DNA of 57,024 bases from an uncultured Alphaproteobacteria bacterium (lineage in GTDB: Bacteria; Pseudomonadota; Alphaproteobacteria; RF32; CAG-239): the NCBI GenBank assembly GCA_944391345.1, contig CALXTE010000012.1, positions 1-57,024 on the forward strand, written 5' to 3'. Made by a program: the position numbers and the translations under genes. Under the pieces are notes generated by a model. That model saw only the letters and a program-made list of their open reading frames with translations. It searched no databases and was not told the DNA's origin. Of this stretch, positions 24,317 through 53,540 are shown one piece after another; positions within the stretch are counted from its first letter, which is position 1, and every line of letters begins with the position of its first letter.

Positions 24317-26170
24317 TTATCCTATTTCATCTATAACCCAACCAGTTTCTTGTAATTCACTCTTCACCTTTTCTTGTAATCTCGATTTTTGAATAGCTAG
24401 ACACAATAAATGACGCGGACGAGATACTGCCACATAATCAAGTTCTTTTTTTAGTTTACTATATGAGGACTTAGCGGGATTAGTAAAAAAATAACTCAAA
24501 TCATATCTATGATATTTGGTTTCAAGAACTAATGTAGAATCGTGAGTTTCACCTTTAACACTATGGATAGTTCCTATCTTTATTTTTACTCCATTTGAAC
24601 ATTTGTATGTGTTTAATTCTGCATTATATCTATTTACATCTGTTTGTGAGAATTCATCATAAGAAAGAAAATCATTATCTTCGGTATTTAATATAGAAAG
24701 TAAATTTTGTTTTATTTCATCCCATTCTGATGTATTAGGGTATCTATTTACCATACAGCCATAAAATATTTGATATAAAGCATCTTTCTTGTTTGTTTCC
24801 TTAAGTTTTTCAATAAAAGAATTTTTTGAAATAGTTTGTCCACTATTTCTTAAGAGCGTAATACATGCATCTATAAAATAATTATAACAATTTTCTTTGC
24901 TAGTTTTACATAATTTAATTACATCCATAAAATGTGTTGGTTTGAATTTTAGATTTGTTTTACTTTTATCAAAATCATTCCAGTAATGTTTAATTGTTAA
25001 ATCACCCTCTCCTTCTTTTTCTCTGCCAACAATACCCACTGCTTTGTGAATTAAATTTTCATCTAAATGTCCGTATTCTTCTAAAATTATTTCGCCATAC
25101 TTTTCTAGCACCTGACAAGAAGGAGTATTGTATAAAATTATGTGATGCTTAAATTCTGTGCTTTTTCCTAAATATGATAAAAATTTTTCTTCTTGGGAAA
25201 TTCGAAATTTTGTAGCGGCTAGTGGATTTTCCTCATCTTTTCGAACTTTAAAAAATTCAATAAATTTACAACTATTATTAAATCTATTTGAGTTATTTAT
25301 TTCATAAGAAAACTCTCCGATTTGTTTAGTATTATATGTTTTATTTGGTTGTTCCATATTGTTACTATTGGAAAATATTGCTTGGTCAGGATCTCCAAAC
25401 CGTTGCATAATTGCTTCATCTTTAAATATTGAACATAGCAACTCATCTTGAAATTGTTGTGTATCTTGCATCTCATCAATAAACACAAAAGGAAATCTTT
25501 TCACTAAATCACCTTTTAATTGCACACTAATGTAAGATGCAAAATTATACATCTCTTTATATTTGATTATGCCATCCCTTAGTATTGATTTTTTTACTGA
25601 TTCTATTTTTTTTCTCCAGCTTTCAGCAATTTTTTTATCTGTGTCAAGATTTTCAATTTTTAACTCATTGTTTTCTAGATAAAAATTTAAACTATAAACA
25701 TATTCATCTTGTTTATTACCTTTGCACCTTAGATATCTATACACCCCATTTTTTGAATTCTTAAATTTTTCAAAAAAGATTTCATCATTAACAGCTTCAA
25801 TTTGTAATCCACAACTTCTTAATAACGGTAAGGCTAGATATTTATCTACAAAGTCTTGAATTGTACCTACAAAATGAGGATATTTGGTAAATTTATATCC
25901 TGCCGGATGTTTTTGTAAAACTTTCAAAATCTCATCTTTAGCAACATTGGTATGAGATAGAACACAAATGCCACGATCTATATCTTTCCATTTTTTAGCC
26001 AATAATAATAATTTACATCCGAGTAATGTAGTTTTTCCACTTCCGGGACAAGCTTGCACATCAATACTCGTGTTATCTTTTAAGACAGCTCTTCGTTTTT
26101 CATCAAACTCTAATGATAATTCTTCTTCAATTGTATTTATATCATCATTAGTAATTTCAATATCTAGCAT
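24317..26170 (-). CDS. gajB: Gabija helicase subunit GajB (UvrD-like)
   Basis: A superfamily 1A helicase of 617 residues. Motif I is QACPGSGKTTLLGCK near residue 40, motif II FVFIDEMQDTQQFQDEL near residue 220, motif III-like RFGDPDQAIFSNSN, a late motif KIGTIHSVKGETHDST near residue 529, and motif VI YVAVSRPRHLLCLA near residue 588. It lies 14 nt downstream of the gajA OLD nuclease gene on the same strand. This pair defines Gabija, an anti-phage system in which GajA cuts DNA and GajB senses or unwinds DNA ends. At 617 residues it is longer than the best-studied GajB (about 490). Confidence 0.88.
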   Translation of the reverse strand: MLDIEITNDDINTIEEELSLEFDEKRRAVLKDNTSIDVQACPGSGKTTLLGCKLLLLAKKWKDIDRGICVLSHTNVAKDEILKVLQKHPAGYKFTKYPHFVGTIQDFVDKYLALPLLRSCGLQIEAVNDEIFFEKFKNSKNGVYRYLRCKGNKQDEYVYSLNFYLENNELKIENLDTDKKIAESWRKKIESVKKSILRDGIIKYKEMYNFASYISVQLKGDLVKRFPFVFIDEMQDTQQFQDELLCSIFKDEAIMQRFGDPDQAIFSNSNNMEQPNKTYNTKQIGEFSYEINNSNRFNNSCKFIEFFKVRKDEENPLAATKFRISQEEKFLSYLGKSTEFKHHIILYNTPSCQVLEKYGEIILEEYGHLDENLIHKAVGIVGREKEGEGDLTIKHYWNDFDKSKTNLKFKPTHFMDVIKLCKTSKENCYNYFIDACITLLRNSGQTISKNSFIEKLKETNKKDALYQIFYGCMVNRYPNTSEWDEIKQNLLSILNTEDNDFLSYDEFSQTDVNRYNAELNTYKCSNGVKIKIGTIHSVKGETHDSTLVLETKYHRYDLSYFFTNPAKSSYSKLKKELDYVAVSRPRHLLCLAIQKSRLQEKVKSELQETGWVIDEIG

Positions 26171-26184
26171 AAATATATCCTTTA

Positions 26185-28050
26185 TTAATCAATCTTTTCT
26201 GAACTTAATGGAGTAGAAGGAATAATATATTCAAATGCATCCAGAATATATTGTGGTAATTTACCTTTTAATTCTTTAGATTTTTCAGTATAATCATTTT
26301 TTAGAATTTCAGCCAATTGATATGCACAATCTGTCTTATTTATTTGAGCAAAAATCTGGGCTGCAATTTCATCTTTTGTTCCCGTTATATTTGCTAATGC
26401 ATCATCAATATCTTTCTTTTTTATTTCAGGATTGGACGCCATAAATACTTCTTTTTTTAGACCTGCTTTTATTAAGCTGTACTCAAATGTCCACTCATCA
26501 GAAACAAAGACCCGAACATTTTGAGCTTCTATATCTATATCTTTATATTTTTTCAACTCCTTTATTTTATCATCTATTTGTTTTTTTCTCTCTTTTTTAT
26601 CTTCTGCAAGCCAATAATTCTTATTGTTTTCTTTTCTTGTTTTAATTTTGTATTTTTCAGCTTCTTGGGGCCATAAATCTAAATCTCTAAGACATGCAAC
26701 TTTAATATTCATCCAATCTTGCTTATTATCTGCTTTTTTCCTTTGAAAAATTTTTGCATATCTTTGAAAAGCTGTATTTTTTACATTTATAATTGACACA
26801 CCATAGTCTTCCAAGTTTTTACCTAAGATTGAAGCTATTGTCGGTAGTAAAATCTCTTCTGCATCACCTTCTACAAAGATTAAGCCTTTTGCAAAAAATA
26901 GATTTGCTTTGGTCACATCTAAAAATTTTTCTAAAAAAACATAATCATCATCCTCTAAGCACGTTTCTCCTTTTCTTAACGAATAAACTCGTCCTCCGTT
27001 CATTATAAAAATACTTTCTAAGTTGGCTTTAGACGCTAAATTGGGACTATGCGTTGATATTATTGATTGAACTGAACCTGTAGATTGTTCTCCTATTTCT
27101 CTAAGAAAATTTAACAACTTCATTTGTAACTGAGGATGGAGGTGTGCTTCTGGTTCTTCTATTAATAAAGTTGGAAGATTTTGCATCTTGTCTTGTTCTA
27201 ACAACAATAATTCCGTTGCCATAAATAATATATTATTAAATCCTAGTCCTTGTTTCCCTTTTGAATCTTCATAGTGTATACTTAACTTTTCCAGTACATC
27301 TTTTAAAAACTTACGCTGCTCTGATGGAGTCATATCATCAAAGTTTTTATCATCAAGAATATTTATTACTGTATCGTGCTCTACATCTTTGAATATCAGA
27401 TTTTTTATATACTTGTTCGTAATGTTATCTTTAATCTTAGAAATACTTTTATTTTGTATAACAGAATGATTAGCTTCAACTATTTTATCAATTAATTCTT
27501 GTATATTCTTTTTATTATCATCTGTATTTTTGAACTCTTGGCAACCAAGTAACACTTGAGATAAGCGTGAACCTCTGCCACTACTTAATTCTGCTTCTGC
27601 ATCTCTCAAAGGTTTTAAATAAGTTGTCGATAGGAAATCTCTTATTTCACGTTCGATAAGAGTTCCTTTTGCATTTTTTCCAGATTTTATGTCTGTCCTA
27701 ATATATACTTGACCATTCCTTTCAATATCTGTTTTCTGGCATAATAAATTTATATATAAACAACTTTTATCATTTTCAAAAGTTAAGTGTTCTATAAATT
27801 TATAAGCAAAATCATCCACATCTTCAAATTTTATAGATATGGAAAAATTGTCACAATTATTATGGAAATCCTCAGTTTTTATTTTAGTCCATTCTGCAGA
27901 ATTTGTATCTAAAGTGTATCTAATCGCGTCAATTAATGCAGTTTTACCTGAATTATTCTCTCCAATTAAAAGATTCATTCCTTTATTTAACGTTATTTTT
28001 AATTCATCAAATATTCTAAAATTTTTTATTTCTATATCTGTAATATGCAT
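26185..28050 (-). CDS. gajA: Gabija nuclease subunit GajA (OLD family ATPase-TOPRIM)
   Basis: A 621-residue class 2 OLD protein. The ABC-type ATPase half starts IKNFRIFDELKITLNKGMNL with Walker A IGENNSGKTALIDAI near residues 32-46, Walker B LLIEEPEAHLHPQLQ near residue 293 and ISTHSPNLAS near residue 332. The C-terminal TOPRIM nuclease half has LIFVEGDAEEILLP near residue 389 and VACLRDLDLW near residue 454. GajA assembles as a tetramer that nicks DNA and is inhibited by nucleotides. It is first in the gajAB operon. Divergently upstream lie repeats and a 56-residue zinc-ribbon gene. Confidence 0.9.
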   Translation of the reverse strand: MHITDIEIKNFRIFDELKITLNKGMNLLIGENNSGKTALIDAIRYTLDTNSAEWTKIKTEDFHNNCDNFSISIKFEDVDDFAYKFIEHLTFENDKSCLYINLLCQKTDIERNGQVYIRTDIKSGKNAKGTLIEREIRDFLSTTYLKPLRDAEAELSSGRGSRLSQVLLGCQEFKNTDDNKKNIQELIDKIVEANHSVIQNKSISKIKDNITNKYIKNLIFKDVEHDTVINILDDKNFDDMTPSEQRKFLKDVLEKLSIHYEDSKGKQGLGFNNILFMATELLLLEQDKMQNLPTLLIEEPEAHLHPQLQMKLLNFLREIGEQSTGSVQSIISTHSPNLASKANLESIFIMNGGRVYSLRKGETCLEDDDYVFLEKFLDVTKANLFFAKGLIFVEGDAEEILLPTIASILGKNLEDYGVSIINVKNTAFQRYAKIFQRKKADNKQDWMNIKVACLRDLDLWPQEAEKYKIKTRKENNKNYWLAEDKKERKKQIDDKIKELKKYKDIDIEAQNVRVFVSDEWTFEYSLIKAGLKKEVFMASNPEIKKKDIDDALANITGTKDEIAAQIFAQINKTDCAYQLAEILKNDYTEKSKELKGKLPQYILDAFEYIIPSTPLSSEKID

Positions 28051-28544: not shown

Positions 28545-28591
28545 AGAGAAGTAGATTTTGGAAAAAGCCGTTGTTGCATTAATTTTGCGAC

Positions 28592-28640
28592 GTGTTGTAT
28601 ATAAATTGCGATTTGCGCGTTGGCTGGTCAGGAAAACGCG
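28592..28640 (+). repeat. Direct-repeat copy plus REP-like element after the zinc-ribbon gene
   Basis: 28592-28614 repeats the 23-bp sequence found at 28210. It runs directly into GCGTTGGCTGGTCAGGAAAA (28617-28636, ending CGCG), a REP-like element with GCGTT/AACGC ends. The same element recurs at 33003-33028 (inverted) and 48757-48780. Confidence 0.6.
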
Positions 28641-28651
28641 GGGAAAATGCA

Positions 28652-29413
28652 TTATTTTTCAAACCATACTTTTGGATAAATTTCTTCCCAACCGGAATTA
28701 TGGCTTGCGTTTTTAACCTTAATTATCAAATCTTCATTTCCGACAAACTGTTCTACCAGCACCGGAAGGATAACTTTATCTTTTGTTCCTACATAGTGAA
28801 TTTGCGGAAGTTCTGCAAATTGATGACGATAATCAGCCAAGTTCATTGATTCATTAAGTGGGGGTAAGTTATGATATTGTGTCCAAGCCAAATGGTCGAG
28901 ATTTCCTGCAATGGTGATGATTTTTTTGATATTCAAACCATTTTTGGCCGAAGCTACTAAGCCTGCAATTTGCGCACCACCTGAAAACCCGATTAAAATC
29001 ACCGGATGCGCCCCCGCAATTTGTTTGATAGCCTCGTATTCTGCATTAACAACTTCATGTGCAAATCGAGCCGTTGTCCAATGTCTTTGAGAACAAATCT
29101 GGCTTTTGACATACTGACAAGGCCTTGCAAGATAAATCACATTCGGGCTATTGTCCCCAAAAGCCAACTCACGAACCAATGTTCCTTTAGGTGTCGGGTC
29201 TTGTGTGGGGCGTCCGTGTGCATTAAATGCATAGCCGTCCCCTTCAATATAAATTTTATATACCCCATTCGGTTTCGTGATTTTTTGCCAACTTGCAATT
29301 GTGAAATCTCTCGTTGCAATTTCTTTATATTCATATGACGGAGGAACGGAAACACTTTGGCATCCGCTCAACAAATAAATCGCAACTAAAATTTTATAAA
29401 AGCCATTTCTCAT
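28652..29413 (-). CDS. Lipoprotein alpha/beta-hydrolase-like protein, copy 1
   Basis: A 253-residue exported protein with a lipoprotein signal peptide: MRNGFYKILVAIYLLSGCQS, the lipobox being LLSGC with lipidation at Cys18. The mature part looks like an alpha/beta hydrolase: nucleophile-elbow-like ILIGFSGGAQIAGL (G-F-S-G-G, Ser near residue 144), an acidic residue in YVGTKDKVILP and a histidine in NASHNSGW. The substrate is unknown. A near-identical copy (a few percent different) is at 48792-49553. It is downstream of autotransporter 1, beyond a terminator; the pairing in both copies suggests it may modify or process the autotransporter or surface lipids. Confidence 0.75.
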   Translation of the reverse strand: MRNGFYKILVAIYLLSGCQSVSVPPSYEYKEIATRDFTIASWQKITKPNGVYKIYIEGDGYAFNAHGRPTQDPTPKGTLVRELAFGDNSPNVIYLARPCQYVKSQICSQRHWTTARFAHEVVNAEYEAIKQIAGAHPVILIGFSGGAQIAGLVASAKNGLNIKKIITIAGNLDHLAWTQYHNLPPLNESMNLADYRHQFAELPQIHYVGTKDKVILPVLVEQFVGNEDLIIKVKNASHNSGWEEIYPKVWFEK

Positions 29414-29449
29414 AGTTCATTATTTGCACAAGATTGTTAAAAAAAAGAA

Positions 29450-29481
29450 AATACCCTGCAACCAAACAGTTACAGGGTATT
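29450..29481 (-). terminator. Terminator of autotransporter 1
   Basis: AATACCCTG (29450-29458) pairs with CAGGGTATT (29473-29481), extended by inner AAC/GTT. On the minus strand it is followed by TTCTTTTTTTT. Half of it is present next to the second hydrolase copy (49591) and the whole next to the second autotransporter (53541). Confidence 0.75.
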
Positions 29482-29500
29482 TCATGCTGCAGATTAAGCC

Positions 29501-32500
29501 TTAAAATTTATATTTTAAGTTAACCAAACCGGTGTGGTCTTGGTAATCTTCACGGAATTTACCTTCATAACCCAATGAAAACTCAACATTATCATTGACT
29601 TCTGCGGTTACGCCGGCACCAAATTCCATACCAAAACGGTCTAAGGCATCTCCTTCAACAGCATAAGCTGAACCATTAGCCAAAGTTACGACTGAATTAA
29701 CATCATCGTTCATCAAGTCATAAGTGGCTGCAATTCTGGCTTCCGGCTTAATGTTCATACCGTTTTCAAGTGTCCATGTCTTGCTGACTTTAGCCCCGAG
29801 AACACCGGTTAAGATATCGGAATCATTACCGGAGACTTTTTGGTCGGCTGAATCGGTATAGCCGTCTTGGCTGATGTGAACATAACGCAAACCAACTTCA
29901 GGCGTTAAACCGAAGTGTTTAAGTTGCATATCATAACCTGTCATGGCTTGCAAACCAAAGGTTTCAACATCATAATCAGCTTTAACCCCAATTCCTGAAA
30001 TGGTTTTGTCTTCGGAATAATCAGACCAACCATAAGATGCGATACCGTTCACATACCAGTTGCTTGGCTTATATTCGCCATAAACAAAAGCTGTATGCGT
30101 GTCAACATCGGTACTTCTCATAAAGCCGTCAATGTCGGTATTAGTATAAGCATAACCTAAACCGATTTTGGTGTCTTCGGTAACATATTTTTCAGCACCC
30201 ATTGCCATACCCGAACTATCAGCATCAAAGCCATAAGCTTTTGAAGTATCATCAAGTTTAGATTTATTAAACAAGCCTTGAACCCACATAGCTGCACGTT
30301 CAAAAATATTATCACCGGAAGACATACCTTCACCACCGGTTGAAACGGAACCACCAGTCAAACGTGTGCTAACAGCGCCAAACACTTGGTTAGCCGTTTC
30401 GGTTTGTGTTTTTTGAACCATCGGTGCAACTTCCGGCGCAACCGCGGTTAATGCATCAACGTAAGCTTTGCTGTCATTTTGAGACAAATTATTCAAAACA
30501 TCGGCCACGGCTTTGGCTTGTGTGTTTGCTCCGGCTGATGTTTTCATACTATCCCAAGCTTCGGCTGTAGACGCATTGTTGGTTGAACCTCCTGCATCAT
30601 TAACCACATCAGAAGCCGAGTTTTCATATTTAATATTATAAGTTCCACCATCTATTGAGGTAATTTTATAACGATTGTTAGAAATCTCATTAGTGAAGTT
30701 GTTATCAAACTTTCCTGTTGTTTCAAACAAAGTGATGTTATCACTATCCCCGATTTTCATTGTTTTACTAATTGTCAAAGCCAGTTTGGAGCCTTCATCA
30801 GCATGAATATTGCGAGCTGATAACAAACCGTTTCCTTCATCAGTAACAGACATATTCAAAGTTGAATCAGCATCAAAAGTGATGTCTCCACCGATTGTGG
30901 CTTTATTCAAACCCACATTCATCACACCACCGTTAGAGATTTCAACACTTCCTGCAATTTTAGAATTGCTGTTTTGAATATTGATTGTTCCGGGGCTCTC
31001 GATATTTGCATTTAATGTTCCGGCCAAATTTAATATGGCACCAGATCTTAAATCAATATCACTGTCTTCATCAACACTAGCCCAGCCCAGACTTGAATTT
31101 TCAGCAATATTAACCGTACCTCCGGAAATATCAACGGGGTTTTGAGTTTCAAAAGTGGTTGAATCTTCAATATTTAATGTACCTCCCGACATTGCAATAT
31201 TGGTGCCCCAAATACGGTTGCCATTACCAGACATATTAACCGTACCACCTTTGATGTTCAGCGTATCGCGTGCATAAAGGCCTTCACCACCTTCAATAAC
31301 ATTTACCGAACCATTAGAAATTGTAATATTTCCTTGTTCAGCCCCGATATCAGTTGCGATTATTTCACCGCCACTTATATTGACGTTGCCTTTACCATAA
31401 TTGCCAATTTCTGTACCGGTAATTTTACCTCCAGAAATATTTAAATCACCTGTATTCTTTTCAGTTAAAGAAATTCTCGCACCATCTTTAAGAATGATTT
31501 CTCCACCGGAAATGTTAATATCTCCGGAAGATACATGATACTGATTTTTATCAATTTCATCAGGATTGAGACCAGCCGTTCGTATATCCTCATCAGTGGC
31601 TTGGTCAAACCATGTACTTGTCTTTTGATAAAATTCTTCTTCACTCATCAATGTTTCGCCGGTGGCACTGTAAATCCAATCACCGTCATAACCACCACGT
31701 TCTATCTTCGCAACTTCTCCGGTTAAATTAATTTTACCACCGGAAATATTAATATCACCGCTTTGACCTTCATGCAAGATACCGCCATCGTGAGCATTAT
31801 CCGGGGTTACATCAGAATAATCCATAGTGATATTGGCATTATTGGTGATATTCATATTACCATTTCCGGTTAAAGTAATTTCACCGCCATCATTAACCTT
31901 AATATTACCACCGTTGATGTTAATATCTGCGGCAAGTATATTGTATTGTCCGCCAAGGCCTTCAGAATATATTCCTGAATTGTCAGACAAAGTAATGTTG
32001 CCTCCGTTAATATCTAATTTGTGTTTGTTTTTACCATCAGATGATAAAAGAATATCACTAGAAGCTGTGCCGTTAATGGTTCCGCTTTGAATAGTTATAT
32101 TACCGCCTGATGCAAGATATGAATTAGTTAAAGTAGTATTACCTCCTTCTAAAGTTATATCTCCGTCAGCCCAGATTCCGGCACTCTCAGGAACTTTGTT
32201 ATTAGAAATTAAATTAGTATTTTTTATTGAAATATTTCCGTTTGCTTCTAAGTCAGAATCTTGCATATCTACGGTAGCATTTTCAATCAGCATATTAGAA
32301 TTATTCGGCTTTAAATCATCATCATTACCGGCTTCTAAAACACTCCCGTTGGAAAGATTTACTTTTCCGTTTATTACAATATCATTATTGTCTGCATCTT
32401 TTTCTGTGGTTTTAATATTTGAATTAGAAATATTTAAGGTGCCGTCTTTTCCGACTTGGATTGTTTTGTAATAATGTAATTCTTTATCGGAAAGGGTTTG

Positions 32501-32614
32501 TTCCCCATTTATCACAAAATCCTTATCTGGATCCCCCACCCAGGCTTGGGCATAAACATTAGTTGTGCTAAGAACTGCGACTAATGCGGTTGAAAATAAA
32601 AGTCTATTTTTCAT
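29501..32614 (-). CDS. Type V autotransporter with beta-helix passenger, copy 1
   Basis: A 1037-residue surface protein. Residues 1-22 are a Sec signal peptide (MKNRLLFSTALVAVLSTTNV, cleavage after YAQ). Residues about 25-640 are a passenger made of many short repeats of the type NISGGxI/NITGGxI, predicting a right-handed beta-helix. Residues about 770-1037 form a standard autotransporter beta-barrel that starts after WVQGLFNKSKLDD and ends in the aromatic signature LKYKF. The barrel inserts in the outer membrane and carries the passenger to the surface. It has no catalytic motif that I can see, so adhesion is the likeliest role. Its barrel is nearly identical to that of 53593-56895 but the passengers differ. 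Confidence 0.9.
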   Translation of the reverse strand: MKNRLLFSTALVAVLSTTNVYAQAWVGDPDKDFVINGEQTLSDKELHYYKTIQVGKDGTLNISNSNIKTTEKDADNNDIVINGKVNLSNGSVLEAGNDDDLKPNNSNMLIENATVDMQDSDLEANGNISIKNTNLISNNKVPESAGIWADGDITLEGGNTTLTNSYLASGGNITIQSGTINGTASSDILLSSDGKNKHKLDINGGNITLSDNSGIYSEGLGGQYNILAADININGGNIKVNDGGEITLTGNGNMNITNNANITMDYSDVTPDNAHDGGILHEGQSGDINISGGKINLTGEVAKIERGGYDGDWIYSATGETLMSEEEFYQKTSTWFDQATDEDIRTAGLNPDEIDKNQYHVSSGDINISGGEIILKDGARISLTEKNTGDLNISGGKITGTEIGNYGKGNVNISGGEIIATDIGAEQGNITISNGSVNVIEGGEGLYARDTLNIKGGTVNMSGNGNRIWGTNIAMSGGTLNIEDSTTFETQNPVDISGGTVNIAENSSLGWASVDEDSDIDLRSGAILNLAGTLNANIESPGTINIQNSNSKIAGSVEISNGGVMNVGLNKATIGGDITFDADSTLNMSVTDEGNGLLSARNIHADEGSKLALTISKTMKIGDSDNITLFETTGKFDNNFTNEISNNRYKITSIDGGTYNIKYENSASDVVNDAGGSTNNASTAEAWDSMKTSAGANTQAKAVADVLNNLSQNDSKAYVDALTAVAPEVAPMVQKTQTETANQVFGAVSTRLTGGSVSTGGEGMSSGDNIFERAAMWVQGLFNKSKLDDTSKAYGFDADSSGMAMGAEKYVTEDTKIGLGYAYTNTDIDGFMRSTDVDTHTAFVYGEYKPSNWYVNGIASYGWSDYSEDKTISGIGVKADYDVETFGLQAMTGYDMQLKHFGLTPEVGLRYVHISQDGYTDSADQKVSGNDSDILTGVLGAKVSKTWTLENGMNIKPEARIAATYDLMNDDVNSVVTLANGSAYAVEGDALDRFGMEFGAGVTAEVNDNVEFSLGYEGKFREDYQDHTGLVNLKYKF

Positions 32615-33028: not shown

Positions 33029-33325
33029 AATATGGTTGTTTTACGATAAATTTATCATCAAAAATCAATTCCTACACTCAAAACGCAGGAAAACGAAGGG
33101 GAATAATATATTAGACCAGCGCAAACTTTTATGCTTCATGTATTTCTATAATTTTAATATTTTCCCCTTGAAAAAGGTGTTTTTTATTAGACAATATATT
33201 GCTTTTATTTTATTGCGGTGATACTTTGTAATTAACAGCATTAAAGATACAATATTTATGTGTTTATTTAGATATCTTTCACAGCACTTTAAAATACTAA
33301 TGTTTTGATAAGGAGTAAAACACTC

Positions 33326-33775
33326 ATGATGTATGATGGCAAAACTCTCCAGCGTTTCACAGAACGAGCAATGAAAAATTACGAACTATTGACCAAACAT
33401 GAGACAAAATATGATATCACAATAACCTTATGTACTTTATGTGGTATATTATCTATATTAGATGATAAAGCAAGAAAAGACATTTTTGTAGATTTTAAGA
33501 TACCTAAATACATTGAACCTTTGCCACATTTTTCAATAGCCTCAGGCAAAGATAACGGCTGTAAAAATCTAGCTATCATCCGTCATTTTCGCAATTCTTT
33601 ATGTCATTTCAAATTAGACGGAACGCATATCAAACCAAATACAGAACAACAAATTGAAGAAATTATATTTGAAGATTACTTTGGCGGACAATTAAAATTT
33701 TCTTGTACTTTAAAAGCAGACCAAATAAAACAACTTTTAATAGATATTAGTAACCACATTATAAAACAGCAGTAA
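33326..33775 (+). CDS. HEPN-like protein, first gene of a two-gene unit
   Basis: A 149-residue helical protein starting MMYDGKTLQRFTERAMKNYE. Near residue 92 it has AIIRHFRNSLCHFKLDG, an R-x4-H motif (RNSLCH) in the setting of HEPN-domain families. I start it at ATG 33326, about 10 nt after AGGAG; a TTG start 7 codons upstream is less likely. It is 2 nt from the next gene on the same strand. HEPN proteins often act as RNases or sensors in toxin-antitoxin and anti-phage systems; here the role is inferred from the fold signature and island location. Confidence 0.6.
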   Translation: MMYDGKTLQRFTERAMKNYELLTKHETKYDITITLCTLCGILSILDDKARKDIFVDFKIPKYIEPLPHFSIASGKDNGCKNLAIIRHFRNSLCHFKLDGTHIKPNTEQQIEEIIFEDYFGGQLKFSCTLKADQIKQLLIDISNHIIKQQ

Positions 33776-33777
33776 AC

Positions 33778-34791
33778 ATGGATAAGAAAACAATATTAAC
33801 CCAAACTATTCCAGAATTTATGGCCGACTGGAATAATTATAAAAAAGGATTAAAACACTTAAAAATTACAGATTGGTGTATATCTAGTGATTATTGTTTT
33901 GATAATTCTGAAAAAATAGATGCCGCTACATTTACGATATTTCCTTTAAGCTGTATGAGAATTATCTATAATGAAATAAATGACAAGCTTCATAATGATA
34001 TCAAAAGTAAAAAACATTTTTCTGATAAAGAATTACAATATCTAAAAGAATCTCCCTATTTTTTTAGTATATCAGTTATTATTGATAATTTAAAAAATGC
34101 ATTTAATGAAGAAATAGCAAAAGAGCAAATATCAAAAGCGTTAAAATTCTATCAAGAATCCCCCTCTCTCTCTTTTTCTCAAGATGCTAACGATTTTTAT
34201 AAACAGTACAATTCATTTTACAATCAATTAAAACAAAAAGGGCACTCAAATAAAATGCCTGCATATATATACTTCGTATCTCAATTTGTCGGGCAAATAC
34301 TTGAATTCTTAATAATTAAAGAACATGGAAGACATCCTCATTGGTGTCCTGATAGAGGACATATTGCTGATTTTCAACAAGGAATTATGTTCACTTTAAT
34401 GAATAACTATTTATATAAGCTAATTCGTAATAGAGTACAAAACTATCGTGTAGTCTTACCTGCTGAATTACAAAACTGTTCCGGGTCATATATTTATGAT
34501 CCTTTTATTAGAATTCCTGACATTATTACTGGAGCTATGTCGTCTTTAGTAGCAATATCAGATGGGTTAACCGCTCAACAACAAAAGCACCGTGACATAA
34601 TAGCTAAATATATTGTTGATAATAAAAAAATTATAACGCTTGCATGTCAATTTAATAAAAATGGACAAGGTTTCTTTCAAAGAACATATTTTGAAAGTAT
34701 TAATAAATGTCCCATTCTGAAATATAATAGAGAGCTAAAAGAAGCACTTTTAAACAAAGAAATACCTGTTGAATTTACATATCGAATATAA
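33778..34791 (+). CDS. Unrecognised 337-residue partner of the HEPN-like gene
   Basis: A soluble protein of unknown family. Notable features are a histidine/cysteine-rich segment in the middle (HGRHPHWCPDRGHIADFQQG, near residues 181-200), which could bind a metal, and helical ends. It starts 2 nt after the HEPN-like gene's stop with no ribosome binding site of its own, so it should be translationally coupled. The pair stands alone between the autotransporter and the convergent OLD-UvrD-DUF2130 operon. I do not recognise the pair as a described system. Confidence 0.6.
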   Translation: MDKKTILTQTIPEFMADWNNYKKGLKHLKITDWCISSDYCFDNSEKIDAATFTIFPLSCMRIIYNEINDKLHNDIKSKKHFSDKELQYLKESPYFFSISVIIDNLKNAFNEEIAKEQISKALKFYQESPSLSFSQDANDFYKQYNSFYNQLKQKGHSNKMPAYIYFVSQFVGQILEFLIIKEHGRHPHWCPDRGHIADFQQGIMFTLMNNYLYKLIRNRVQNYRVVLPAELQNCSGSYIYDPFIRIPDIITGAMSSLVAISDGLTAQQQKHRDIIAKYIVDNKKIITLACQFNKNGQGFFQRTYFESINKCPILKYNRELKEALLNKEIPVEFTYRI

Positions 34792-34811: not shown

Positions 34812-36104
34812 TTACTTCTGCTCCAATTCAGCGAATTTTTGAGCCATGGTCGGGTTGTTACGAGTTAAACGCTTAACTGTCAAATCTTGAGCTTTATTAT
34901 TCGCCAAACGCAAGTTATTCTCAGAAGAAAGCAAAGCATCTTTTGTCTTTTGCAAATGGTCGATAGTCTTATCAATCTCTTCAATTGCTTTGCGGAACTT
35001 ATCACTTGCCAACTGATAATTGCGTCCAAATTTCTCCTTAAAATCGTTCATTTCAGCTTCAAAATTGGAAATATCTATATTTTGGTTCTTATATTCCGCC
35101 AATTGTTTACGATATTGAACCGAATTCAAAGCCGCATTTCTAAGCAATGTAATCATCGAGATGAAGAACTGTGGACGAATAACATACATTTTGGGATAAC
35201 GATGCGAAACATCAACAATTCCAGTATTATAGAGTTCATTGTCAGATTCAAGCAAAGACACCAAAACCGCATATTCGCAATTTTTCTCATTACGGTCTTT
35301 ATCCAGTTCCTTAAAGAAATCCTCATTTTTATGTTTGGTTGCCGTGGTATCCATCTCGTTTTTCATCTCAAACATAATGGATATAAATTCAATACCTTCC
35401 GGTGTGCTCTCTCTGAAAATATAATCGCCTTTACTTCCGGTTTTGGCATCATTATCTTTTTCAAAGTAAGCATTTTGAAAAGCCGTAGCACGCAAACGAT
35501 TAAACTCAATCTCACAATGTTGTTCCAGAGTTTCCCCTACCATTTTGGTTGATTGACGCGTTTTCAAATCTTTATAAAAAGCAATTTCCGTATCTTTAGC
35601 CTTGAGTTGAACCGCAAAATTATCTTTTAGGGATTGTTCTTGAAGTTGCTTGTCTTTTTCAGCTTCTTTAAGTTGGCTTTCAAGTTGCATAATTTTCTTG
35701 TCTTTTTCAACCAATTCATCTTTTTTCTCACTTACAGCCGAAGCAACCGCCAAAGTTTTGGCTTGTTCATTGGATTGAACTTGAGCCTTGAGTCGTTCAA
35801 TTTCCTGATTAAGACTATTCAAGGAACGTTCTTTTTCAATATCTTTGTCTTTGGCAACAGTTGTAATTTCTGCTTTCAAGCGCTCAATTTCTTGTTTGAG
35901 GGCAGCCGTAGATTGCTCTTGCTCCATTTTAGCCTGAGTTTTAATAAGAGAAAGCTCACTCTCCTTCTCTTTGGCAAGCTGAGCTTCACGTTCATGTAAT
36001 TCCTTATGAAATTCGGCATTACGAACTTGACCGATAATCGCTGCATAACCGGACTCATCAACTCTAAAAACTTCTCCACATTTCGGACATATTATCTCAG
36101 GCAT
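34812..36104 (-). CDS. DUF2130 family protein with PD-(D/E)xK-like core
   Basis: A 430-residue COG4487/DUF2130 protein. It begins with a CPKCGEVF zinc-ribbon-like motif and has a long coiled coil from about residue 35 to 175 (Glu/Lys/Gln rich). The conserved domain follows, where GSKGDYIF...[16 protein letters not shown] (near residues 219-250) reads as a D...ExK nuclease core. Another coiled coil fills residues 340-400. DUF2130 proteins resemble RmuC in layout. The gene starts inside the 3' end of the UvrD-like gene (8-nt overlap), making it the third gene of the operon. A nuclease role in DNA defence is inferred. Confidence 0.8.
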
Positions 36105-38172
36105 CTTGTTCTCCTATGCTTTTGGCTTCTTTTATCTCTCCAAAAATATTTTTTATTTGTTCTTTTTGTATTTCATCTAAAGAATCAGTATATAAAATTG
36201 CAAGATTATTTTCAGCTCTCGTTACTGCCACATAAAAAAGATTACGTGCAGATTTCAATTCTTTACTATCTTCATTTGAAGGTGAAGATAAATGTCTAAT
36301 TAAATTTCCAAAAAAGTTATTCATTTTTCCAAAATCTTTTCCCATTATAATTAATACATTTTTAAATTCATCACCTTTCGTCCCATGATATGTATGATAC
36401 ATAATATTAGATTTATATATATCATGGAGATATTTGTACCAATCATCAAAAATAGATATATCTAAATCACAAAAACTAGATATTGTTTCCTTATAACTAC
36501 TTAATTTTTGGTCCTCCATATCTTCATCTTCGGTATAAAAAAGTTTTTCAAAAATATAGTCATAAAATAATTCACTATTATTGATGCGTTCTTCGTTAAG
36601 AAATGTTTTCAGTACTCTCTGAACATATACATTTTCATCCAAAAGCATCTTAAAAAACGATGAGCTGTATTCCTTTAAAGTGTGTCCATCAATCTTTTGC
36701 AAATCATATATCAGTTTTCGCAGCTCTCCTATACTCAAATCTTTTAAGATATTTCGATCTACTAATTCCTGAATTAATGTATCGGGATTTTTTAATCTAT
36801 TTCTTAACTCAATTAATCGATATATATAAGATTGTATTTCTCCTAATTTTTCAATTTCTTTGTTTAATATATGATCTCTTAAATAGTTATAATTTTTGCC
36901 TGTTTTATAATAAGGAGAATTTTTAAAAAAATCATACATATCACCAAATCCCATGCTGTGCGCTATGTCTTCATTTTTTAAAACTAAGCAATCTAATTCA
37001 TTCTTTTGTGTTATCTTCCAAGTTTTATAATGACTGTTAATAAATTCATCGATATTATTTCCTACATAAAATGAGACACTTCCTTCAGGACAGTCATCAT
37101 AAATTGTTTTTTGCTTTAATTCATCATTTCTTATTAAAGTACCAACTTCAATAATCTTTTTTGCAGACCTTCTGTTGTACTCTTTTTTTATTTCCTTAAT
37201 ATTGGGATGTAGTGTTTTTAAAGAATCACCGACTCCTTCATCATAAATATTTTGCTTTTTATCACCATAATATCCTATTAATAAATCTTTTTGGGCAAAT
37301 TCCGATAACTTGGCCATTATTTTAACTACACTTGGATTTGTATCTTGATATTCATCTATTAAAATATATGGATATTTATCTACAATAATCTTTTGTAATG
37401 CTTTATAATTCAATATTAAATCTAATGAATATCTTATCAGCGTATCATGACTAAATTGCATGGCGTTCAAGCGGTCATAACTGACTTGAGAATTATAAGC
37501 TACCTTTGTATAATTTATATTATCTTTTTTTACTTTAGAATCTATATTTTTGATGGTTTCTCGAAATTTATATACTTTCAATACATTATCAGCTACTTTT
37601 TTGAAGTTTGCCACATTTGATAAGTACTTTTTATCAACAAAGTCCATAGCATTTTTAAATTCTTGAGCATTTTTATGCTTATTTTTATAGTAAATGTCTG
37701 AATATTTACAAATTTTTTCAATAAAATTCTCTTTATCCTTATCCTCTAATTCTTTATAAAATTTGCTCCATGTTTCTTTTTTCAGTTTATCTTCTATATT
37801 GTTAATCTCTTCTTCTATATGCTTCTTATGAGCTTCAACAAGTTCTTTCTGATATAAACATATCTCACCCCATAAAAAATCATGAATCGTTGAAACTTTT
37901 ACTAGTTCTGTATTTCCTAATCTTTTTTTTATCTCATTTGCTGCTACATTAGTATATGTAATACATCTAATCATCTGATTATGAGCTACTAACTGAGATG
38001 AGTATTTTGAAAGTATATAAGATAAAGATTGAATTAAACAATAAGTTTTTCCAGCTCCTGCACCTGCATCAAACACGAAGCAATCTTTATTATCTATACA
38101 TTTTTCAACTTGAGCAAAAACTTGCTCTTCTTTATTCTTATTTTCTTCGGAAACATGCAAATTATCCATCAT
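36097..38172 (-). CDS. UvrD/Rep-like helicase, partner of the second OLD protein
   Basis: A 691-residue superfamily 1A helicase. Motif I is [18 protein letters not shown] near residue 34, motif Ia [15 protein letters not shown], motif [18 protein letters not shown] near residue 267, [13 protein letters not shown] near residue 301, a late motif [15 protein letters not shown] near residue 597, and motif [18 protein letters not shown] near residue 648. It overlaps the OLD gene by 4 nt (ATGA type) and the DUF2130 gene by 8 nt. The arrangement is that of a Gabija GajB, but it is divergent from the GajB at 24317 and larger. It could process DNA ends for the OLD nuclease. Confidence 0.85.
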
Positions 38173-40226
38173 TTAGTCTCTCCTAGATTCTTTTTTAGAA
38201 AAGACAAAGAATCTTCTAAATACTGAGGTAATTTAATTCCATTATCTTCTTTTGTTAATATTTCATACAATATTTTATTTGCAAATTTTGCTTTATCATC
38301 AGCCAATTTTTGTTGTAATTCATATGAGTGATTTTTATCAATCTTATTATCAAGAGAACATCGATTATAAATTCTAGGTTTGATATTTTTTAAAACATCA
38401 TTTAAAATTTTATTATCTGTATTTGTCAAAATAAAAGCTTCTTCAAAACTTGTTGCATAAAAACCATTTATAGGATGTATTTGTGAACAAACCATCAAAT
38501 TATCCTGTTTTACATAATCTTTTATTTTACTCAAGTCATTTTCTTCACCGTAGAAATACTGTAAAGTTGAATTTGTGCTTTTTCTATTTGTTAAGTTATC
38601 TATCTGAGTAAAACTTGAATGTTCGCCTTCCCCATTTTCTTGTTCTGTTCTTTCTATATCTAAGTCAGTAACAATAACCACTGGGATTCCCAACGATTTT
38701 ATAAGTTGTTCATAAACTTTGGCATGAGCCCCATTAACTAGCATTACTGAAATATTTTTTGTATTTAACTTGGGATCTTGATCTAGATAATACTGTAACA
38801 AATAATATTCTGATATTCCTTCTACAAAAATAGCTGCTTCGGCAAAAAATAACTCAGATACTTTAAATTTGATATGTTTTTTTATAAACATCAATTCTTC
38901 AGCTGTATTTTTAGATGATACTATATTTTCATCCGACAATATTATAATTTCAGGATAACCATTCGGACATCGTATATAGTTAATGTTATCAAAACTTGCT
39001 CCACTATGAATTTTACTATTGAGGATATGGGGAGAATGGGTGGTAATCACAAGTTGCGAATTTACATTTTTATGCTTACCTTTTAATAATTTTGTAATTG
39101 TATCGTCTATTCTCTTTATAAATAATTCTTGCATTTGAGGATGCATATATGTTTCCGGTTCTTCTATTGTTATCAAATTTATTTGGCTATTTCTTTGTTC
39201 GTTATGATAATTATCAACATATGAAATGATTTCAGAAATAATCATAACCAAATTGGTATATCCTAGACCATATTGATTTTCTGGAATTAATTTTTCATTT
39301 TCTAAATATTCACATTTTACCAGATTATTCATCAATGTATCTAAGTCTAAATCAACTCGCATTCCTACTTTATGAGATGATATAATACTATTAAACGTAT
39401 CATTAATATCTCGCGTATAATTTTCACCAAGATCAGATGATATTCCTTCAGCTGCATCAAATAATGTATTATTAAATTCTGTATGGTGGTTTGCATTTTT
39501 TTTATCACTATCATATCTGAATTTAATAATTTTTCTAAGCGCATTTGACAAACATTTGTCAGAATCAATCTTATTTGCTTTAATAGATTTTATTTTGATG
39601 AGATTTGCAATTTTAAAATTTTTCACTTGCTCCATTGATGAGTTATAATAATTCAATTGGAAATTATCAGCCGATAAAAGTTTAAATCTATCGTTTTCTA
39701 ATTTTTTCTTACATTTATCTCCTTTATTTAAACAATATTCTTGATAACTTTTATTAATTTCTCTTAATTTTGAGATAAATATTTCTTTTTCTTTAATCTC
39801 CCATTTCACATAAATTTCTACAATTTTGTTATCTAAATTCGATATTTTTAAAAAAGGAGCAATATTGTTAACTAAATCATCATCATTATCATCTAACTCA
39901 ACTCTAAACACAAAACTCATTTCAGGTAAAATTATAGTATCAAAACTATCGTCTGGATTTTCAGAGTAGGAATTAAATAAATTAGAAATATAGTCTAAAT
40001 TGAAATCATATTCACTAAAACTAGGATTGGAAGATAAGAGTGTTTCTAAACAAACGATAATTGTCGTTTTACCACTGTTATTAGCCCCTAAGACCAAAGA
40101 AGTTCTTGCCGCTATATTGATATCTCTTATTTTATGGGGATTAGAAAAGGACACTCTATTGTATTTATTATCCTTTTCATAATAAAATTTGCGAAAATTT
40201 CTTATTTCAAATTCTTTTAGATACAT
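38169..40226 (-). CDS. Second class 2 OLD-family ATPase-TOPRIM nuclease
   Basis: A 685-residue OLD protein. ATPase half: MYLKEFEIRNFRKFYYE, Walker A VLGANNSGKTTIIVCLE near residues 46-62, Walker B TIEEPETYMHPQMQEL near residue 359, and ITTHSPHILNSK near residue 400. TOPRIM half: FFAEAAIFVEGISEYYLL near residue 460 and VVIVTDLDIERTEQ near residue 511. It differs from gajA in length and in a longer insert between Walker A and B. It is first in an overlapping three-gene operon with a UvrD-like helicase and a DUF2130 protein, reading away from attR. It is a Gabija-like system in which the third gene is unusual. Confidence 0.85.
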   Translation of the reverse strand: MYLKEFEIRNFRKFYYEKDNKYNRVSFSNPHKIRDINIAARTSLVLGANNSGKTTIIVCLETLLSSNPSFSEYDFNLDYISNLFNSYSENPDDSFDTIILPEMSFVFRVELDDNDDDLVNNIAPFLKISNLDNKIVEIYVKWEIKEKEIFISKLREINKSYQEYCLNKGDKCKKKLENDRFKLLSADNFQLNYYNSSMEQVKNFKIANLIKIKSIKANKIDSDKCLSNALRKIIKFRYDSDKKNANHHTEFNNTLFDAAEGISSDLGENYTRDINDTFNSIISSHKVGMRVDLDLDTLMNNLVKCEYLENEKLIPENQYGLGYTNLVMIISEIISYVDNYHNEQRNSQINLITIEEPETYMHPQMQELFIKRIDDTITKLLKGKHKNVNSQLVITTHSPHILNSKIHSGASFDNINYIRCPNGYPEIIILSDENIVSSKNTAEELMFIKKHIKFKVSELFFAEAAIFVEGISEYYLLQYYLDQDPKLNTKNISVMLVNGAHAKVYEQLIKSLGIPVVIVTDLDIERTEQENGEGEHSSFTQIDNLTNRKSTNSTLQYFYGEENDLSKIKDYVKQDNLMVCSQIHPINGFYATSFEEAFILTNTDNKILNDVLKNIKPRIYNRCSLDNKIDKNHSYELQQKLADDKAKFANKILYEILTKEDNGIKLPQYLEDSLSFLKKNLGETK

Positions 40227-40484: not shown

Positions 40485-40563
40485 TGAGGTTTACACCCCA
40501 GACGATATTTAGATAAGTTATTGATTTTACGTTAAACAAGGTTTTATGGGTTGGTATTGACGC

Positions 40564-40619
40564 ATCCAGCCACCCCAGCCAATTTTGAAATAAAGCCTTG
40601 TTTTTGCAAGGCTTTTTCT
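40564..40619 (+). repeat. attR: right direct repeat, shared with a second element
   Basis: This is a 55/56-bp match to 10937-10992, carrying 17 nt of the tRNA-Gln 3' end including CCA, then the terminator hairpin. The upstream part of the tRNA is absent, so no tRNA is encoded here. A second integrase gene begins 68 bp further right, so this repeat probably serves as the left end of a second, tandem element. Confidence 0.88.
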
Positions 40620-40687
40620 AAAGAAAAAGCCTTCAAATGTTGGGAAATGCCCTTTTGTAACATCTGAGACAGTTGGGTGAGACAGTC

Positions 40688-42230
40688 ATGGCCTTAAAAC
40701 AAAATCATTTGGAACGCAGGAATCACACCTATTATTTCCGCTATTGGATACCAAAATCACTCCAACCCTTCTTCAAAAAAACACACGTTAGGTATTCTTT
40801 AAACACTAATGATTACAATATAGCCATCCTGCTATTGAAGCGAGAAACTTTTAAGTTTGATACGTTAATCAATGATTTGGAACGGCTGCTGATGGAAATA
40901 AAAAACAACAAACTCATTCTTTCCGATGACGATATTGAAAATATCGTTGCCAGCCGCATTAAAGAGATTCAAAACAAGTTAGACGATTCTTATTTTCAAA
41001 TTAAAAATAATCAGCTCTCGGTACATGAGCTTGATATCACTATGCTCAGCCGCTCGGATTATGAACATTCCGATAGTTATGGTTCTTATGAAGATTTTAA
41101 GGATGAGCAAGTCGTCAGCTTTGTAAAGAGATATATCACTTCGCTCAAACAAAACAAACGTATTCCCCCTTCGGTATTTGATTTCTTAAAACGAACCGTT
41201 AAAAAGAACGCGGTTGAACCCGAGCCCAATCAAAGACCGGATTGGCTGGATAAATTGGAAAATCATTTGGCTCTGGCCGATGATTATGCTCTTAACAGAG
41301 CTAACCGATATGCTTTTGCCCGAGATTGGTGATAAGACCATGTCCACCACCACGGTCAAACGCTACTTACGCGTATTCAAAGAATTTTTAACCTACGCTC
41401 AGAGAAAAGGTTATGTCAGTGCGGCCTTAAACGTTCAAATAGAAATTCCGGTCAAAGATAGCCGCCAAAGCTATGACCGCTTTACCAAAGCCGAGTTATT
41501 GAAGATATTTAATCCTGAATATTATCCTTATCCGGAAGATGAAAACTTTGCCTATCGCTACTTTATTCCGCTGATGGCTTTATACAGTGGAGCTCGTCTG
41601 AACGAATTGTGCCAACTTTATTGCGATGACATCAAAAAAGAAAACAATATTTATTATATGATTTTTACAGATGAACATCCCGATCAACATTTGAAAAATA
41701 AGGTTTCTAAAAGAATTGTACCGATTCATCCCAAAATTATTGAAATGGGCTTTTTAGATTATTTGCTTTCGGTAAAATCAAAACGCAAGCAACGCATATT
41801 TTATCAGCTTACTTACGCTCAATATAATCACTATGCCGATAAAATGTCCAAATGGTTTGGCAGATATTTGGAAAGTATAGGAATCAGCGGCAAAAGAAAA
41901 GTCTTTCACTGCTTTCGCCATACGGTAAAACCGGAACTCCGCGATGCCAATGTTGGCAGAGAATATCAAAACGCTATTTGCGGATGGGAAGGTATTGATA
42001 CCGGTGAAAGAGTATATGGCAGCAATTTCCCGATTGAAATCCTTTATAACGAAATCTGCAAATTGCAATATCCGTATTTGGACGAGAACTTGAAGAAAAT
42101 CAAAGCCCGCGTCCCCTCTCCCCGCCAAAGATTACGAATGCGGCTTTATGGGACAAGGCGTAGAAAGGAGACTTATCAAAATGAAGACACAAAAAGAAGA
42201 AAAAGAAATATTATTGAATATCATGTATAA
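40688..42230 (+). pseudogene. Frameshifted tyrosine integrase of a second element
   Basis: Two overlapping frames together make one integrase. The first (ATG 40688, after GGGTGAG) starts MALKQNHLERRNHTYYFRYW and stops at TGA 41330 after RYAFARDW. The second frame continues from about 41325 with GDKTMSTTTVKRYLRVFKEF to 42230. The second half has the catalytic residues YSGARLNELC, HCFRHTV and a tyrosine in GERVYGSNFP. A single indel around 41215-41325 explains the break, and no slippery sequence stands out. Its C-terminus overlaps the next gene, which has its own strong ribosome binding site. Position beside attR mirrors the first integrase beside attL. Confidence 0.8.
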
Positions 42231-43428
42231 TGGTGGTTATCTACAATCAGAAAATCAAAATATTGGCCATGAAGTCATAAACTTATTTCAATCTGATAAT
42301 GGCAACAACTACATCTATGTTTTACCATATGGCAATATGGCAGCTAAACACAATGGTAAAATTGAAACAATTTTATTAGTTAAAAGACACAATGCATCCA
42401 TATTGGAAATATTAGCCAAAGCTGAAGGACTAGAACAAATCATCAATATATCTAAAGACCGTCCAAGTTGTGAAAAAGATATTCACCAAAAGCAAATACA
42501 ATATATTGATGATAATAACATCCGATATGGGGGAAAACTTTTATATGAAATTATGAAAGAGAATGAAGGTGTTGAAACCGGCTTTTATGTTACCTTTAAG
42601 GCAGATAAAATTATCAGACCCAAAGAACGTATTTTTATAACAAACATAAAAGAAAACAAACGTTGTTATTACTTAAAATTACCTGCATTTGCAAAGCAAA
42701 GTCCTAAAATGTATATTAGCAACATTCAAAATTCAGATGCGTATAAAGCTCTCAATAAGATTATTAAAGATAAAACTCTTTGGAATAGAAACAAAGATAA
42801 GAAGCAAGTTAGTACAAAACCCAAAAAAACGTCAGATCATAATTTTATTGATATAATAAGAAAAGATTACGATGAACTTACTTATTCTAATTTATTTCAA
42901 TATATTTTTACAGCAAATAAGGAATTATTTAAAGATTTTTCAAAAAATGTATTGGGAATAAAATTCAACGATAATTATACTGTTGAACGCGAGAGAGCTA
43001 ATATTGATTTGCTAATTTATGATAATAAGAGTGTTGTTGTTATCGAAAATAAAATAAAATCCAATATTAATGGAGTTTTTTATGATGGAGAAAATATAGA
43101 AAAAACTCAATTAGATAAATATCACGAATATGTAGAAGATAATTTCACTCAAAATCCCAAAAAAGCATATTTTGTCTTTACGCCTAACTATAATATAATC
43201 TCATTAAATAAATATGATAAAAACAAACTATATAAATTAATTAAATATAGTGAAATTTATGAGTTTTTTGAGCAGTATCGCAAAAATCATTCGAAAGAAT
43301 GCAAAGAAATTCCTTATTTTGAAGAATTTTTATATGCGTTACATAAACATACTTTAGATACAGACAATAGAAATGATATTGAAGCAGAATTGCGATTTAT
43401 CAAAGCTATATTATCTGTCAAAAATTAA
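42181..43428 (+). CDS. Two-domain protein with C-terminal PD-(D/E)xK nuclease
   Basis: A 415-residue protein starting MKTQKEEKEILLNIM at ATG 42181, with AAAGGAG upstream. Residues 1-200 are an unrecognised domain with several beta-rich stretches. Residues about 220-415 contain a PD-(D/E)xK-superfamily core: ERANIDLLIYDNKSVVVIEN followed by KIKS (near residues 280-303), then TQLDKYHEYVEDNF, as in the PDDEXK_4-type restriction-like proteins. It may be a nuclease effector of a defence system. It is followed 15 nt later by a 75-residue gene that is probably its partner. Confidence 0.65.
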   Translation: MKTQKEEKEILLNIMYNGGYLQSENQNIGHEVINLFQSDNGNNYIYVLPYGNMAAKHNGKIETILLVKRHNASILEILAKAEGLEQIINISKDRPSCEKDIHQKQIQYIDDNNIRYGGKLLYEIMKENEGVETGFYVTFKADKIIRPKERIFITNIKENKRCYYLKLPAFAKQSPKMYISNIQNSDAYKALNKIIKDKTLWNRNKDKKQVSTKPKKTSDHNFIDIIRKDYDELTYSNLFQYIFTANKELFKDFSKNVLGIKFNDNYTVERERANIDLLIYDNKSVVVIENKIKSNINGVFYDGENIEKTQLDKYHEYVEDNFTQNPKKAYFVFTPNYNIISLNKYDKNKLYKLIKYSEIYEFFEQYRKNHSKECKEIPYFEEFLYALHKHTLDTDNRNDIEAELRFIKAILSVKN

Positions 43429-48716: not shown

Positions 48717-48756
48717 GTTGGGCGGAACACGGCGGATGGCTTTAGTTGCGATTTGT

Positions 48757-48780
48757 GCGTTGGCTAGTCAGGAAAATGCG
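48757..48780 (+). repeat. REP-like element by the second hydrolase copy
   Basis: GCGTTGGCTAGTCAGGAAAA followed by TGCG matches the element at 28617-28640 at 22 of 24 positions, preceded in both by TTGCGATTTG. Homology between the two duplicated modules starts here (about 48747 and 28607). Confidence 0.55.
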
Positions 48781-48791
48781 AGGGAAATGCA

Positions 48792-49553
48792 TTATTTTTC
48801 AAACCATACTTTTTGATAAATCTCTTCCCAACCAGAATTATGGCTTGCGTTTTTAACCTTAATTATCAAATTCTCATTTCCGACAAACTGTTCCACCAGC
48901 ACCGGAGGGATGACCTCGTCTTTTGTTCCGACATAGTGAATCTGCGGAAGCTCTGCAAATTGATGACGATAATCAGCCAAGTTCATTGATTCATTAAGTG
49001 GAGGTAAATTATGATATTGTGTCCACGCTAAATGGTCGAGATTTCCTGCAATGGTGATGATTTTTTTGATATTCAAACCATTTTTGGCCGAAGCCACTAA
49101 GCCTGCAATTTGCGCGCCACCGGAAAACCCGATTAAAATCACCGGATGCTGTCCTGCAATTTGTTTGATAGCCTCATATTCTGCATTAACGACTTCATGC
49201 GCAAAACGAGCCGTTGTCCAATGTCTTTGAGAACAAATCGGGCTTTTGACATACTGACAAGGCCTTGCAAGATAAATCACATTCGGGCTATTGTCCCCAA
49301 AAGCCAACTCACGAACCAACTCTCCTTTAGGTGTCGGATCTTGTGTGGGGCGTCCGTGTGCGTTAAATGCATAGCCGTCTCCTTCAATATAAATTTTATA
49401 TACCCCATTCGGTTTCGTGATTTTTTGCCAACTTGCAATTGTGAAATCCCTTGTTGCAATTTCCTTATATTCATATGACGGAGGAACGGAAACACTTTGG
49501 CATCCGCTCAACAAAAAAATCGCAACTAAAATTTTATAAAAGCCATTTCTCAT
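48792..49553 (-). CDS. Lipoprotein alpha/beta-hydrolase-like protein, copy 2
   Basis: A 253-residue protein nearly identical to the copy at 28652-29413, with about ten amino-acid differences (for example IFLLSGCQS, PTPKGELVREL, TKDEVIPPVL). Lipobox LLSGC (Cys18), nucleophile-elbow-like GFSGGAQIAG, and histidine in NASHNSGW are all kept. KDEVIPPV in this copy restores the usual hydrolase D-xx-P pattern, whereas copy 1 has KDKVILPV. Homology with copy 1 continues 50 bp past the start codon and stops inside the terminator (about 49604), where foreign sequence begins. Confidence 0.75.
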   Translation of the reverse strand: MRNGFYKILVAIFLLSGCQSVSVPPSYEYKEIATRDFTIASWQKITKPNGVYKIYIEGDGYAFNAHGRPTQDPTPKGELVRELAFGDNSPNVIYLARPCQYVKSPICSQRHWTTARFAHEVVNAEYEAIKQIAGQHPVILIGFSGGAQIAGLVASAKNGLNIKKIITIAGNLDHLAWTQYHNLPPLNESMNLADYRHQFAELPQIHYVGTKDEVIPPVLVEQFVGNENLIIKVKNASHNSGWEEIYQKVWFEK

Positions 49554-53417: not shown

Positions 53418-53540
53418 TCTCAAACTCCTAAAGATAAATCATAATAATCATAATCTCAAAAGTTGAAAATAAGGTTAAAGCCTATCTTATATCTCCATAA
53501 ACAACCCGTGGATAGAAGGATTTTGTAAAAATCTAAAGAA

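Follow-up and report, generated by a model that had tools for sequence, protein, structure and literature searches.

A Gabija operon with an overlapping DUF2130 gene, a candidate accessory nuclease, in an uncultured alphaproteobacterium

A Gabija gene pair and the DUF2130 gene behind it

A 57,024-nucleotide (nt) stretch of DNA from an uncultured alphaproteobacterium (the window, to which all positions refer) contains three overlapping minus-strand genes. They code for an OLD-type ATPase-TOPRIM nuclease (GajA), a UvrD-type helicase (GajB), and a protein of the DUF2130 family (Table 1). Open reading frame coordinates and the sequence itself agree with the original prediction, made from the sequence alone, that these genes overlap by 4 and 8 nt. 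An AGGAG-type ribosome site was read close 5' of both downstream starts, those of GajB and DUF2130.

GajA matches its PADLOC model with 597 bits over residues 1–681 of 685, and GajB matches with 709 bits over residues 7–682. In a five-sequence alignment, GajA residues G47, N49, N50, G52, K53, and T54 of the Walker A motif (GxNNxGKT) are invariant, as are E355/E356, TOPRIM E469, and D521/D523. The N-terminal UvrD domain of GajB was matched in Pfam, the C-terminal UvrD_C_2 match is below the cut-off, and a VAVTRA helicase motif was read directly. Chance is ruled out for PADLOC and Pfam matches of such strength. Judged by sequence, the OLD and UvrD-type helicase pair is an ordinary two-gene Gabija, as had been proposed: an OLD ATPase-TOPRIM gene is followed by a UvrD-type helicase gene, and both match the Gabija models nearly full length. 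The locus differs from Gabija in its third overlapping gene, DUF2130, which is present here and in one congener (G004). PMC10822852 and PMC8136825 describe a GajA-GajB complex and nicking of DNA by GajA, and the Bacillus cereus GajA:GajB complex is described as a 4:4 octamer. A preprint proposes that phage proteins blocking RecBCD make phages sensitive to Gabija (PMC12407980).

Table 1. Features of the two Gabija loci and the DUF2130 gene in the window
Feature	Position	Strand	Basis
GajA (class 2 OLD-type ATPase-TOPRIM nuclease), 685 amino acids (aa)	38169..40226	-	PADLOC PDLC00065; AAA_15 and OLD-like_TOPRIM
GajA Walker A, residues 47–55, GANNSGKTT	40062..40088	-	Sequence read; alignment
GajA TOPRIM domain, residues 460–523, with E469, D521/D523	38658..38849	-	Pfam PF20469
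GajA stop/GajB start overlap, 4 nt, ATGA	38169..38172	-	Sequence read
GajB (SF1A UvrD-type helicase), 691 aa	36097..38172	-	PADLOC PDLC00128; UvrD-helicase PF00580
GajB stop/DUF2130 start overlap, 8 nt, ATGCCTGA	36097..36104	-	Sequence read
DUF2130 protein, 430 aa, coiled coil and PD-(D/E)XK-like core	34812..36104	-	PF09903, 302 bits; models
DUF2130 long helices, residues 17–186, coiled-coil part	35547..36056	-	Model
DUF2130 nuclease-like core, residues 184–345, folded alone	35070..35555	-	Model
DUF2130 motif stretch, residues 225–250, D227, E246, K248	35355..35432	-	Alignments A4 and A5
Second Gabija, GajA	26185..28050	-	PADLOC PDLC00099, 654 bits
Second Gabija, GajB	24317..26170	-	PADLOC PDLC00147, 519 bits

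The Gabija part is ordinary, and DUF2130 is the lead. Its PF09903 match spans residues 157–416, with KGDYIF at 225–230 and FEMKNE at 245–250. The modelled core has the α-β-β-β-α-β topology of PD-(D/E)XK nucleases and lies behind a long coiled coil. Residues E191, E194, D227, E246, K248, and Q312 are invariant in alignments of 12 (A4) and 15 (A5) sequences, and the same D and ExK are aligned in a divergent DUF2130 subfamily (hhalign probability 98.1), which argues for catalysis. VIA-align rows for the core are headed by Can2, VC1899, McrC, Cdn1, and BstEII. Modelled fold and invariant residues thus support the earlier suggestion of a second nuclease, and DUF2130 is probably one, of PD-(D/E)XK type. 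It shares core topology and the E, D, ExK, and Q residues with the structures of Can2/Card1-type, McrC, BstEII, and MspJI nucleases, which we take to be members of the PD-(D/E)XK superfamily, but differs from them in its permanent long N-terminal coiled coil and, in most members, a CPxCG start. RmuC-like proteins combine a coiled coil with a PD-(D/E)XK domain, the same general layout as in DUF2130. RmuC was not among the six Pfam families listed for DUF2130 at E values up to 10, a search in which HMMER filters drop most weak matches. Searches of solved-structure sequences at E values up to 10 returned nothing but coiled coils, with no PDB nuclease among them, and DUF2130 had no match in PADLOC or NCBIfam (E 0.01) or in PHROGs.

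Distribution of DUF2130 and its gene neighbours

Scanning genome contigs with a three-sequence GajA profile yielded 20 GajA-clade loci, 33–95% identical, from Bacillota, Pseudomonadota, Campylobacterales, and Fusobacteriales. GajB lies directly after GajA in 18; in L056 and L059, the remaining two, the contig edge cuts the locus short. DUF2130, searched for with tblastn and profiles of both DUF2130 subfamilies, occurs in one of the 20, a contig of G004 (L044). At least 1.3 kb past GajB is available in 13 of these loci, and neither profile found DUF2130 in the 12 such loci among the other 19. At E values up to 1e-40, this type of GajB is present in two of 127 host-family genomes (our own and G004) and in two of 398 genomes of the phylum (our own and G354); profiles did not find DUF2130 at the GajA-GajB locus of G354 (L054). 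No GajB relative was found in a search of viral contigs. The expected succession of OLD and UvrD genes therefore holds across this clade, and the expected succession of DUF2130 does not. With DUF2130 adjacent in only two congeneric genomes within the searches made, close to the adjacency in a single genome that was named beforehand as refuting it, OLD-UvrD-DUF2130 was rejected as a conserved unit, and with it the original view of an undescribed conserved three-gene defence system.

DUF2130 is present once in its own genome and was matched in 13 of 91 genomes of relatives, three of these matches being partial or weak. Of these 13, G000 is the window and G072 was left out; among the wide neighbourhoods of the remaining 11, GajA/GajB of this type was found in one, that of G004. 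In G018, which belongs to another genus, the contig begins inside DUF2130, and the 126 residues present are identical to those in the window; the host-family search gave no GajB match in this genome, and the contig edge leaves the side upstream of DUF2130 open. The DUF2130 proteins of the window and G004 are 99.3% identical, and DNA identity over the three-gene block is mostly 90%–99% per 150 nt (lowest 87%). DNA similarity with other host-family DUF2130 copies (L020–L024) breaks off at the start codon or no more than 14 nt away. In a DUF2130 tree of 47 rows, with partner labels assigned by eye, the window and G004 fall inside a nine-row host-family clade (support 96/96), of which six rows are labelled "none" and one TrlF/RM. 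Because the two nest among host-family copies from other contexts, DUF2130 probably joined this Gabija once and recently.

Across the phylum, DUF2130 was matched in 33 of 398 genomes (31 above the cut-off; 34 places listed), yet this widespread family is unnamed in PADLOC, NCBIfam, and PHROGs. The gene is patchy, its nearest host-family kin are in other contexts, and we regard it, with moderate confidence, as facultative and not a fixed part of Gabija. DUF2130 was rejected as a phage gene: a search of 50,697 phage records yielded no match, and it has no PHROG; 16 distinct loci were found in IMG/VR contigs. Among the papers searched, DUF2130 is named in three and COG4487 in one, never in the title or abstract; nothing on DUF2130 appears in the records returned for accessory or third Gabija genes, and the Gabija/OLD passages of PMC10568477 do not mention it.

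Among 57 DUF2130 loci from five sources, an OLD profile showed nine with an OLD gene directly adjoining on the same strand. These are on a Citrobacter plasmid (L034), in Escherichia coli type III (L094) and type I (L095) restriction islands, upstream of DUF2130 in L099, L117, L118, and L120, and downstream of a divergent DUF2130 in L110 and L115. Since L034/L094 and L118/L120 are close pairs, about seven of the nine are distinct. DUF2130 begins 2–5 nt downstream of OLD in seven. L099 (1938–8525) has four genes in succession, coding for a NERD-UvrD helicase of 608 aa, a 460-aa protein, OLD, and DUF2130. This helicase, two genes upstream of OLD, rules out a description of all nine loci as OLD without UvrD; near the other eight, the helicase profile found no UvrD-type helicase. 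The L099 row is a second, unrelated-looking helicase-OLD-DUF2130 arrangement. In two IMG/VR contigs of ~56 kb (L118, L120), a compact OLD-DUF2130 pair, 5 nt apart, lies amid small genes and is perhaps a prophage cargo module.

OLD and DUF2130 as an obligate pair were also rejected, as OLD relatives exist without DUF2130. Six of them (L130, L132, L133, L134, L135, and L136) had no match to either DUF2130 profile, and an Aeromonas locus (L131) retains only a remnant, the first 49 and the C-terminal 30 residues. On the 47-row DUF2130 tree the OLD label requires four changes, at least three of them on supported branches, and the SIR2-HerA label three. On a 31-row OLD tree, in which the position of the long rows L110 and L115 is unsure, the DUF2130 label requires six changes (at least five). 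The OLD-tree counts are not a frequency, since the DUF2130-positive rows came from searches with DUF2130 and the negative ones from searches with OLD. By these sequence comparisons, partners of DUF2130 are gained and lost. OLDs of 626–634 aa beside DUF2130 resemble class 1 OLD nucleases, with best matches to PADLOC Old (189–196 bits: L034, L118, L099), but often carry DUF2130 2–5 nt downstream, unlike the lone genes that make up class 1 in the scheme of PMC10568477. Class 2 of that scheme consists of GajA together with GajB.

Other defence genes adjoin DUF2130 on the same strand. A CD-NTase lies 15 nt upstream in L040 (PADLOC Cyclase, 599 bits), a TrlF-like protein 15 nt upstream in L023, a TrlF-annotated ATPase 49 nt downstream in L030, and SIR2 44 nt downstream in L109, followed by HerA. 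DUF4297 with HerA is found in L037, type III genes in L103 and L119, and HsdR in L129. A SIR2-like gene overlaps a divergent DUF2130 (GGDV ... WESKR) in L111. In L112, a divergent DUF2130 with the same motifs overlaps a 498-aa gene.

Twenty of the 34 listed places, mostly the best-scoring, were compared with 16 stretches taken as controls from these genomes. Neighbours of at least 150 aa that extend to 4 kb or less from the midpoint of DUF2130 (100 proteins) and 107 control proteins were searched with PADLOC at E 1e-15. This yielded 131 matched models around DUF2130 versus five around the controls; as several PADLOC models can match one protein, the figure of 131 does not count genes. The models listed for DUF2130 neighbours include SIR2 (four proteins), HerA (three), and Old (three), and the 16 control loci gave no PADLOC match to OLD, SIR2, or HerA. 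At least eight of the 20 DUF2130 loci have a defence gene within 4 kb: OLD in L099, L110, and L115, SIR2 in L106, L108, L109, and L111, and type III in L103.

Interpretation of the association

The best explanation, held with moderate confidence from sequence comparison and the modelled fold, is an ordinary two-gene Gabija accompanied by a facultative, partner-swapping DUF2130 that is a probable nuclease. By analogy with studied systems, GajA and GajB would assemble into a single complex and cut invading DNA. DUF2130 would be translationally coupled behind gajB in the two congeneric genomes and made in step with GajB, and elsewhere it would be co-produced with OLD, SIR2-HerA, TrlF, CBASS-like, or restriction systems. 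It may degrade DNA already nicked, opened, or stalled by the partner system, strengthening the response as a useful but dispensable component. We infer its catalysis, this division of labour, and any contact with GajA or GajB. Several observations weigh against this explanation. SIR2-HerA is on the strand opposite to DUF2130 in L106 and ~0.5 kb upstream of it in L108, 23 of the 47 DUF2130 tree rows have no recognised defence partner (labels by eye), and the control loci are not free of PADLOC matches (TnsB, TniQ, mad3, MzaA, and mad2, one protein each).

The nearest competing explanation is that of a stand-alone gene travelling in defence islands. DUF2130 would then be an independent defence or DNA-maintenance unit that merely lies downstream of gajB with no functional link, placed next to Gabija by the island, and the overlap would be a recombination accident. 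We regard this as a substantial possibility: it would suit the partnerless rows of the tree, the several unrelated locations within the host family, the loss of DNA similarity to L020–L024 around the start codon, and the occurrence of OLD loci both with and without DUF2130. However, many different defence genes lie on the strand of DUF2130 at a spacing of -8 to 26 nt, and its neighbourhoods are rich in defence genes relative to controls, which is more than expected of loose clustering. A genuine system with DUF2130 as its obligate third component, the view taken originally, would account for the tight overlaps with ribosome sites and for a block kept in two congeners with nearly identical DUF2130, but is improbable given one DUF2130 in 20 GajA-clade loci, GajB of this type in 2/127 host-family genomes versus DUF2130 in 13/91 relatives, and nearest DUF2130 sequences that are not beside Gabija. 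Least probable is a coiled-coil protein with a regulatory or structural role, such as a scaffold or an inhibitor of defence nucleases, whose nuclease-like core is inert. The long modelled coiled coil, promiscuity across unrelated effectors, as expected of a general modulator, and the position just behind OLD in seven loci would fit this role; invariance of the E, D, ExK, and Q residues, with D/ExK kept in the divergent subfamily, speaks against it.

The preferred explanation, a facultative nuclease beside an ordinary Gabija, can be extended, tentatively, to a plug-in immunity nuclease that docks by gene shuffling behind unrelated effectors and finishes the DNA destruction they start. Its partners would be OLD (at least three lineages), Gabija, SIR2-HerA, DUF4297-HerA, TrlF, CD-NTase, and type I and III restriction. 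Such a nuclease would be expected to boost many systems, and phage counter-defence could be directed at it. If DUF2130 is a shared accessory nuclease, several systems that have been described separately would gain a component in common, and it would become clear why OLD genes regarded as single may be partnered.

The island and its other genes

The second Gabija, which the original prediction had also placed in the same island, was recovered as an ordinary system at 24317–28050, matched by PADLOC subfamilies other than those of the first. The 3' end of a tRNA-Gln gene and its flank are repeated in the window (10880–10992 and 40561–40619; 98% over 56 nt) ~29.6 kb apart. By this repeat, the two Gabija systems, a type IIG enzyme, and DUF2130 probably belong to an integrative island at tRNA-Gln. 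Similarity to G004 stops at the tRNA-Gln repeat. Beyond it, an integrase (40673–42230) is split into two overlapping open reading frames in different frames, one with the DUF6538 part and one with the Phage_integrase part, probably by a frameshift. A PDDEXK_4 protein (42148–43428) adjoins the integrase and has a weak PADLOC PDC-S26 match (48 bits).

A HEPN (pEK499_p136) gene and then a 337-aa gene (33305–34791) are both convergent to DUF2130. The two are kept in G004 and are more diverged (67% and 85% identical), with DNA identity down to 58%–96% per 150 nt. Autotransporter-type genes lie at 28576–32614, 48746–49606, and 53526–56895, and stretches of them are repeated within the window and in G004.
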